NCBI RefSeq assembly: GCF_028368935.1
Contig: NZ_JAQNDK010000001.1
Coordinates: forward strand, 1,364,001 to 1,428,000
Length of the DNA: 64,000 nt
Source: Sorangium aterium
GTDB taxonomy: Bacteria; Myxococcota_A; Polyangia; Polyangiales; Polyangiaceae
Reading direction: 5' to 3'
Part shown: positions 62,068 through 63,797 of the stretch, piece by piece
Position numbering within the stretch: the stretch's first letter is position 1
Layout of the letters: each line of letters begins with the position of its first letter
Position numbers and translations under genes: made by a program
Notes under the pieces: model-generated
Told to the model about the DNA's origin: nothing
Database searches by the model: none
What the model saw: only the letters and a program-made list of their open reading frames with translations

Positions 62068-62580
62068 ATGGCGTTGCAAGCTCATCTCCAGTTGAAGGGC
62101 GTTACCCAGGGCCCCATCGATGGTTCGGTCACCCAGAAGGGTCGCGAGAAGACCATCGCTGTCATCTCGGTGCAGCATCAGGTCGTGAGCCCGCGTGATC
62201 CGGCGACCGGCATGCCCAGCGGGAAGCGCCAGCACAAGCCCTTCGTGATCACGAAGGAGCTCGACAAGTCGACCCCCCTTCTTTACAACGCCCTGGTCAC
62301 CAACGAGAGCATCTCGGAGTGGAAGCTCAAGTTCTACACGCCGGGCACCGCGGCCTCGAAGAACGTCGGCAAGGAGCAGAACCACTACACGGTCACGCTC
62401 ACGAACGCGACGGTCGCGAGCATCGACTTCCACATGGACAACACCCGCCTCACGGACGGCAGCAAGGACCGGCCGGAGTACGAGCGGATCTCGTTCACGT
62501 ACCAGAAGATCGAGTGGTCGTACGATGACGGCGACGGCGCGCGCCAGGCGGACGACGACTGGGAGACGCCGAACCAGTAG
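62068..62580 (+). CDS. hcp: T6SS tube protein Hcp, copy 1
   Basis: This 170-residue Hcp (TssD) protein shows the family signatures GPIDGSVTQKGREKTIAVIS, GKRQHKPFVITKELDKSTPL, and ISFTYQKIEWSYDDG. Hexamers stack into the inner tube that the sheath ejects. It ends ADDDWETPNQ, the typical D-D-W ending. An AGGAAGAGG-like ribosome site precedes the ATG. A near-perfect intrinsic terminator follows at once, so it can be made at high level apart from the downstream genes. Confidence 0.96.
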   Translation: MALQAHLQLKGVTQGPIDGSVTQKGREKTIAVISVQHQVVSPRDPATGMPSGKRQHKPFVITKELDKSTPLLYNALVTNESISEWKLKFYTPGTAASKNVGKEQNHYTVTLTNATVASIDFHMDNTRLTDGSKDRPEYERISFTYQKIEWSYDDGDGARQADDDWETPNQ

Positions 62581-62605
62581 CGTCTAGCGGTAGATGTCTC
62601 GTCGC

Positions 62606-62641
62606 ACCGGGCGGCCTTCGGGTCGCCCGGTTGCGTTTGTC
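62606..62641 (+). terminator. Strong intrinsic terminator after hcp copy 1
   Basis: ACCGGGCGGCC, a TTCG tetraloop and GGTCGCCCGGT form an 11-base stem with one G-T pair, followed by TGCGTTTGT. It starts 26 bases after the stop codon. Confidence 0.85.
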
Positions 62642-62661
62642 GTCCTGACGTTGGGGCATCA

Positions 62662-62787
62662 GAGCGGGGCGCATCTTCGTGCGCTACGGGCTCGGCCGCT
62701 AGGCAGGCGAGTGAGGCGTACGAAAGTACGCCGCAGCGAGCCGAACGAGGCGGATGAACCCGTAGCGCACGAAGATGCGCCCCGCTC
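62662..62787. repeat. 126-base element with perfect 29-base inverted ends
   Basis: Bases 62662-62690 and 62759-62787 are perfect reverse complements over 29 bases (arm begins GAGCGGGGCGCATC). The 68-base centre holds another perfect hairpin, GGCGTAC-GAAA-GTACGCC (62715-62732), whose loop is a GNRA tetraloop. The design fits a miniature inverted-repeat element or a stable structured RNA. It sits between the hcp copy 1 terminator and hcp copy 2 and contains no gene. Confidence 0.85.
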
Positions 62788-62845
62788 CAGAGGGTTCCTC
62801 AAAATCAGGCATGGCCATCACCCGCAGCAAGCTCAGAATGTTGGC

Positions 62846-63331
62846 ATGCCCCTCAGCGCCTACCTCAGACTCACCGGCGAAAGACAAGGGGAAATCAGGG
62901 GCTCCGTCACCCAGAAGGGGCGAGAAGGTAGCATCCTCGTCACCGAGGTATTCCACTCGCTGGTGGGGCCGCGCGACCCGGTCACCGGACGCCCGACGGG
63001 CAAGCGGATGCACAAGCCCTTCATCGTCACGAAGGACCTCGATCGGTCCACCCCGCTCCTCCTCAACGTCCTCAGCCACAACGAGAGCATCCCCCGCTGG
63101 GAGCTCCAGTTTTACAGGTCGATCGCGATCGGTATCGAGAAGCCAGTCTTCACGGTCCAGCTCACGAACGCGAACATCTCGAGCATCCAGTTCCACATGC
63201 TCAACGTGAGGAACCCGGTGCAAGCGCGCGCGCCCGAGCAGGAGGAGGTCGCGTTCACGTACCAGAAGGTCGTCTGGATCTGGAACGACGGGGGCGTCTC
63301 CGCGGAAGACGACTGGCTCACGCCGCGCTGA
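62846..63331 (+). CDS. hcp: T6SS tube protein Hcp, copy 2
   Basis: This 161-residue Hcp paralogue aligns with copy 1 along its length: GEIRGSVTQKGREGSILVTE, GKRMHKPFIVTKDLDRSTPL, VAFTYQKVVWIWNDGG and the D-D-W end. It differs in surface segments, so it may form mixed tubes, a second tube or carry different cargo. The ATG at 62846 matches the start of copy 1 (MPLSAYLRLTG beside MALQAHLQLKG); a longer upstream frame would run through the inverted-repeat element and is rejected. It lies 46 bases before tssE and is likely co-transcribed with it. Confidence 0.93.
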   Translation: MPLSAYLRLTGERQGEIRGSVTQKGREGSILVTEVFHSLVGPRDPVTGRPTGKRMHKPFIVTKDLDRSTPLLLNVLSHNESIPRWELQFYRSIAIGIEKPVFTVQLTNANISSIQFHMLNVRNPVQARAPEQEEVAFTYQKVVWIWNDGGVSAEDDWLTPR

Positions 63332-63377
63332 GCGGGCGGGCTTCCGCTCGAGGCGCGAGCTGATCTACGATCCCGCC

Positions 63378-63797
63378 GTGGCCGGTGCCTCCCTCCTCAC
63401 CCGAATCGCGCACGCGGCCGACCCGCACTCGACGGAGCGGCACACCTACCGGGATCACGACCTCGAGTCGGCCATCCTGACGCACCTCGGGCACATGCTG
63501 AACACCCGCCAGGGGAGCTCGCTGACCTGCCCGGACTACGGCCTGATGGAGGTCTCGGAGGTGCTGCATGAGTTCCCCGAGGCGATCGGCCTGGTGCAGC
63601 GCTCGCTCAAGAACTGCATCCAGACCTACGAGCCGCGGCTGAAGAACGTGCAGGTCCGGCACCTGCGCACGGACGCGATCCAGTCGATGGTCCTCGAGTT
63701 CGAGATCACCGCGCAGATTCACTTTCCCGATGGCCGGCGGCAGGCGCTCCGGCTCGGCGCTGCAGTGGACCAGAGCGGCAATGTCCGGATGACGTAG
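63378..63797 (+). CDS. tssE: T6SS baseplate wedge protein TssE
   Basis: This 139-residue gp25-like protein has SAILTHLGHMLNTRQGSSLT, CPDYGLMEVSEVLHEF and VLEFEITAQIHFPDGRR. The Arg-Gly-Glu-type block of phage gp25 (here NTRQGSS and PDYGL) is recognisable. It starts with GTG at 63378. TssE with TssF and TssG forms the baseplate wedge. It precedes tssF by 73 bases. Confidence 0.93.
   Translation: MAGASLLTRIAHAADPHSTERHTYRDHDLESAILTHLGHMLNTRQGSSLTCPDYGLMEVSEVLHEFPEAIGLVQRSLKNCIQTYEPRLKNVQVRHLRTDAIQSMVLEFEITAQIHFPDGRRQALRLGAAVDQSGNVRMT

Follow-up and report, generated by a model that had tools for sequence, protein, structure and literature searches.

Small palindromic repeats of bacterial genomes are usually read as insertion sequences that have suffered deletions, the ends being the part that matters. 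The bacterial MITEs Correia/NEMIS, RUP, ERIC and YPAL are shorter than 200 bp and mostly non-coding, carry inverted repeats, form stable stem-loops, and show short duplications and empty versus filled sites; Correia, RUP and ERIC have TA at their termini, and YPAL makes duplications of 3-26 bp (PMC2229807). The REP elements and REPINs that go with Y1 transposases are also palindromic and present in many copies, measure 20-40 bp, and carry a GTAG or CGTC tag (PMC3733652, PMC3116915). It is also reported that flanking ORFs often receive their TAG stop codon from a GTAG REP (PMC3733652).

The window analysed here is a stretch of 64,000 nucleotides from the genome of Sorangium aterium, the source genome. 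At window positions 62068-63797 it holds a tandem pair of diverged hcp genes and, after them, a gene for a gp25-like baseplate protein, all three belonging to a type VI secretion cluster. A long palindrome lies between the hcp genes, and the features of the region are as follows.

62068 to 62580, plus strand: hcp copy 1, given as context (PF05638, E 1.9e-34).
62606 to 62631, plus strand: terminator-like hairpin after hcp copy 1, outside the element and also kept in relatives that lack the element.
62659 to 62661, no strand: left target flank TCA (family target C-TNA-G).
62662 to 62787, plus strand in the orientation of the model: palindromic mobile element, multi-copy, its site empty in four relatives; covariance model R1.
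62662 to 62690, plus strand: left arm, 29 nt, perfect complement of the right arm, with right-arm states at the differing blocks.
62700 to 62706, plus strand: 5' half of the internal-loop motif, TAGGCAG (UAGGGAG in the family; alignments A1-A3).
62715 to 62732, plus strand: apical hairpin GGCGTAC-GAAA-GTACGCC, its stem kept by covariation and its loop letters differing among copies.
62742 to 62748, plus strand: 3' half of the internal-loop motif, CGAACGA (CGACCGA in the family; alignments A1-A3).
62759 to 62787, plus strand: right arm, 29 nt, perfect complement of the left arm.
62788 to 62789, no strand: right target flank CA, a degraded duplication, single copy in the empty site of G005 (...GGGGTGCCAGGG...).
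62846 to 63331, plus strand: hcp copy 2, given as context (PF05638, E 4.5e-28).
Family-wide, without window coordinates: element end sequences GAGGGTGTT, GAAGGTCAGC, CAGCCTGTGGA and GAGCGGGG.

The geometry given in the preliminary description holds throughout. The palindrome is 126 nt long, its outermost 29 nt (62662-62690 and 62759-62787) are perfect reverse complements, and over 38 nt the arms are 92% complementary. The inner 7-base hairpin capped by a GNRA tetraloop is present as GGCGTAC (62715-62721), GAAA (62722-62725) and GTACGCC (62726-62732), and the whole stands, as described, after the terminator-like hairpin and ahead of hcp copy 2, with 58 bp between the end of the palindrome and the likely ATG. 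The palindrome strand, with three extra bases included, folds at -102.7 kcal/mol (z = -12.2), a value equalled by none of 200 shuffles, and the covariance model R1 matches this copy at 52.9 bits (E 5e-9).

This palindrome is itself an insertion, a single copy of a mobile element. A search of the 13.5-Mb source genome returned 45 matching stretches, and with opposite-strand matches removed these amount to 16 copies of near full length and about 10 truncated ones; each of five congeneric genomes has at most one copy of the window arm type, and that one is truncated. When these five genomes were searched with the joined flanks of ten copies (L001-L010; for L010, part of the flanks), the window site was found empty in G001, G003, G004 and G005, where the hcp1 terminator and the region upstream of hcp2 are present and 10-15 bases stand in place of the element and its near flanks, so that the insertion at this site is lineage-specific. 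At L002, five empty loci read GGCC-TGA-C, and the filled locus reads CC TGA, then the element from TAGCGGGG to CCCCGCTA, then TGA C. The insertion there is exact and has duplicated 3 bp, and the gene upstream has this TGA as its stop codon. At the window copy only CA remains duplicated in the flanks, and this copy is not at a stop codon. In the source genome stop codons are occupied by L002, L006, L007, L009, L010 and L016, with TAG as the codon at L006, L007 and L009. One element copy in G003 is identical, flanks included, to one in Sorangium cellulosum So ceGT47. Elsewhere, the copy at L155 lies between two direct repeats CTAACCGTTCAATCCACGC, that is, within another repeat.

The family reaches well beyond this species. 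The first sign was weak matches in G008, which belongs to another genus; they pointed to palindromes that share the inner hairpin but not the arms, and one of these, used as query, gave further matches in G008 and G003. In the alignment of nine such palindromes the blocks GTCGCGAGCG / CGCGCAGCAG and CAGGGAG / CGACCGACG are near-invariant, and between subfamilies the outer arms share little beyond the fact that they pair. The covariance model built from these nine sequences detects the family in 25 of the 116 genomes covered for the order, and at least 30 copies are present in some of them; in a phylum-wide sample only two matches fell outside the order, both weak (E 3e-5 and 8e-5). A pattern scan of named genomes followed by the model check added Minicystis rosea, Polyangium spp. 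and Sorangium cellulosum So ceGT47, together with a Byssovorax MAG and MAGs of Polyangiaceae or delta-proteobacterial/Myxococcales assignment, and none of the pattern matches from groups outside Polyangiales passed the model. The exact arm pattern of the window had no match among the named genomes, because the arm type is nearly species-specific. Two subfamilies coexist in the source genome, since L088 (1501-1625) carries a second arm type (GGCTCTG.. with the GTCGCGAGCG loop). Thus the element probably belongs to an order-wide Polyangiales family of non-autonomous, MITE-like elements of about 122-126 bp.

Across many genera, 122 distinct copies were available for the analysis of target choice. 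Their duplications are of two types, a 3-bp TNA, mostly in the context C-TNA-G and with arms GAGGG, GAAGG or GAGC, and a 4-bp YTAR with arms CAGCC or GCTC, and they vary in step on both sides of the element (TCA 23, TGA 3, TAA 1; CTAG, TTAG, CTAA, TTAA). Both lengths, on their different arm classes, share one core. With coding judged by the length of the open frame and by GC at codon positions instead of by annotation, 24 of 27 clear TNA copies sit exactly on a stop codon that ends a coding-like ORF, and 11 of 16 YTAR copies likewise lie at such a stop. The CTNAG sites of the same loci comprise 23 stops, 87 non-coding sites and 156 sites within genes; against the stop and non-coding sites taken together (23/110, 21%), the 24 of 27 gives p 7e-11, and the corresponding preference for CTAG gives p 7e-4. 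A strong preference for stop codons as insertion target is thereby shown. The duplication restores the stop codon, and host genes therefore stay intact. Polarity is nearly fixed in the TNA class (TCA 23 against TGA 3, p 9e-5; the copies are separate insertions, though from few genomes). In the TCA class the mRNA bears the complement of the strand that defines the loops; CTAG-class copies are flanked by genes on either side or on both.

What the family conserves is a folded core. Among 41 aligned matches, 92.3% of cells are paired and 39 of 43 pairs show double changes, counts that are biased toward the model to which this alignment was fitted and for which arm-to-arm copying is a partial alternative source; seen by eye, each arm is simply the reverse complement of the other. 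Covariation scores 0.623, while shuffled controls reach 0.154 and slid controls 0.123 at most, so the stems covary beyond both. The internal-loop motifs GUC/A, GA/GCA and tandem GA are near-invariant: over 33 rows, one letter mostly holds 80-100% of the column throughout GUC, GA, GCA and the greater part of tandem GA, though a few columns in GA fall below this, and the outer arm columns average a 57% majority letter. These loops persist even in distant genera whose arms are unrelated. The letters of the apical loop, by comparison, vary freely among copies, so the GNRA loop of the window copy is incidental, and we reject a conserved GNRA loop; the GNRA-capped hairpin is not supported as the signature of the element, the internal loops being the conserved parts.

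The perfect arms require a different explanation from the one first offered, which took them as a sign of recent insertion or of selection on structure. Most source-genome copies have imperfect arms, left TGCAGATTCGTGTGATACGGG against right CCCGTAGCGCACGAAGATGC, with GA/GA and TGA/GCG blocks as typical mismatches; perfect arms are seen in the window copy and a few others, not family-wide. At every differing block the left arm of the window copy shows the right-arm state, and in L002 and L003 the outer block has been copied in the opposite direction. The copy-wide pattern thus indicates arm-to-arm copying, and judging from these sequence states the perfect arms of the window copy are best explained if the right arm served as template for the left; they would be neither ancestral nor conserved.

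Overall, we consider it probable that the element is MITE-like, that an IS5-like DDE transposase mobilises it in trans and that selection maintains its folded core, with placement at stop codons. TNA and YTAR duplications are typical of IS5-family enzyme groups, and it is from the target duplications only that the type of transposase is suggested. A DDE transposase with IS5-family-like target choice would act on the element in trans; selection on the element itself would maintain the folded core, the likeliest reason being recognition of the folded hairpin by a protein of the transposition or host machinery; copies would reach stop codons through target choice, tolerance and possibly some benefit at gene ends; and quasi-palindrome correction from right arm to left would have given the window copy its perfect 29-bp ends. 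Three observations sit awkwardly with such a model. Ordinary MITEs should conserve their ends, whereas in this family it is the core that is conserved and the ends that vary; a 23:3 bias of TCA over TGA is unexpected for two equivalent ends; and the window copy has a degraded duplication and lies off the stop codons. As for an autonomous partner, no pairs of the same ends at IS-like spacing occur in G122 or in G076/G084, nor among the matches listed for the source genome (G000) and G113. Paired ends sit at element spacing, and the single ends that were inspected are truncated copies or contig ends. In the draft genome G084, element ends coincide with contig ends in seven contigs (C3, C49, C114, C167, C173, C179 and C185), which suggests many near-identical recent copies that break the assembly. 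In G113, contig C1 carries two shorter palindromes with the same arms (5907958-5908031 and 8445060-8445104, about 74 and 45 bp), which may derive from the element by internal deletion.

A fixed core with variable arms and the polarity, neither of which follows from simple end recognition, make recognition of a folded strand a serious alternative. Here a recombinase would bind not the end sequence but a folded single strand, either ssDNA or RNA later copied to DNA, and the arms might then drift as long as they pair, with fixed loops and a fixed polarity of insertion. Arms that differ wholly among subfamilies and yet remain paired around fixed loops agree with this, as do the 23:3 polarity relative to TCA and the lack, among the matches listed, of an autonomous partner with the same end sequences. 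The arm mismatches point the same way: counted by context on the model strand, G-T/T-G exceeds A-C/C-A by 39 to 21 (p 0.027), an excess read on copies chosen with a model of that same strand; the raw cell counts, 202 against 42, are inflated by the choice of model pairs. The G-T excess is thus only a weak sign of RNA. Against a folded-strand intermediate stand the precise 3- and 4-bp duplications, which are usual for DDE enzymes, a source genome without a Y1 (IS200/REP-type) transposase, and the capacity of arm-to-arm copying to yield covariation in palindromes as well. We regard this route as possible rather than likely, and hold to the same tentative degree the corresponding proposal that the hairpin is the unit of recognition, its loops bound, its paired arms free and stop codons targeted in one polarity. 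If hairpin recognition were true, one structured core would be carried by several kinds of ends and with two duplication lengths.

It is unlikely, in our judgement, that the family is an ordinary MITE derived from one insertion sequence, its core merely inherited and its covariation the product of arm copying without selection. Inverted ends and duplications fit MITEs, and arm copying is seen directly, from right to left in the window copy and reversed in the outer block of L002 and L003. Unconstrained copying, however, would remove mismatched loops, and the persistence of GUC/A, GA/GCA and tandem GA argues for selection on the core; two duplication lengths and different arm classes around a single core also speak against simple descent. 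Somewhat less probable still is an RNA role, in which selection at gene ends would act on a structured 3' UTR or terminator and mobility would be old or incidental. The very stable fold and conserved loops would suit such a role, and exact placement after the stop exceeds what tolerance would give, but the mRNA of the TCA class holds the wrong strand, the complement of the one that defines the loops, CTAG-class copies have genes on either or both sides, the copies are lineage-specific, and the window copy is off the stop codons. Finally, that a covariance model of GC-rich palindromes has gathered unrelated hairpins is very improbable: some matches are weak (E near 1e-5) and the reverse strand of a perfect palindrome scores too, but pattern matches outside Polyangiales fail the model, and the copies share a length, a target site and a stop-codon placement, none of which the model encodes.

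The preliminary description had proposed a MITE or structured RNA of undescribed type, to be recognised by further copies, target-site duplications and covariation. That proposal stands in its dispersed copies, empty sites, duplications, covariation and conserved loops; the perfect arms and the GNRA hairpin have fallen away as its marks. Rfam 15 gave no match above the gathering score for the window region or for seven family loci, and on that negative a known RNA family is rejected; viral, phage and plasmid collections, each searched with different queries, likewise gave no match. We found no published description of the family in the open-access literature, most subscription papers lying outside that scope, and these small folded mobile elements are apparently undescribed so far.

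Regardless of how they move, the elements can be placed among described systems. IS630-like insertion sequences in the source genome (L047, 2108-3316, and L048, 2398-3605; TAGTGC ends, 90% alike) are likewise flanked by CTAG, but their TAGTGC..GCACTA ends are unrelated to the element; an IS630 parent of the RUP/Correia type, with its 2-bp TA duplication, is rejected on these ends and on the duplications TCA, TGA and 4-bp YTAR. MRSC-65-2 is also a structured motif with dozens of copies per genome, yet it spans diverse phyla and has UYCCGG repeats (PMC11109978), whereas the palindromes have other motifs and are nearly confined to Polyangiales. With the TNA and YTAR groups of the IS5 family they share target sequence and duplication length; unlike these, they carry no transposase gene, and no insertion sequence with matching ends was found among the matches listed.

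In behaviour, the nearest relatives are the MITEs of PMC2229807 and the GTAG REPs of PMC3733652. REPs are palindromic and numerous too, but the present family, at about 125 bp, has target duplications and no tag; a REP/REPIN-RAYT system is rejected, the source genome giving no match to Y1_Tnp and the alignments showing neither GTAG nor CGTC. Like the bacterial MITEs, the elements are short, non-coding, many and dispersed, with terminal inverted repeats, duplications, empty sites and stable stem-loops; unlike them, they combine a conserved core with variable arms, make TNA and YTAR duplications, and have stop codons as their main target. The family thus offers a natural system for the recognition of non-coding elements by structure, for the finding of gene ends and for the shaping of palindromes by arm copying, and it reverses the usual reading of small palindromic repeats: across several families of one order, it is the ends that differ and the folded core that persists.
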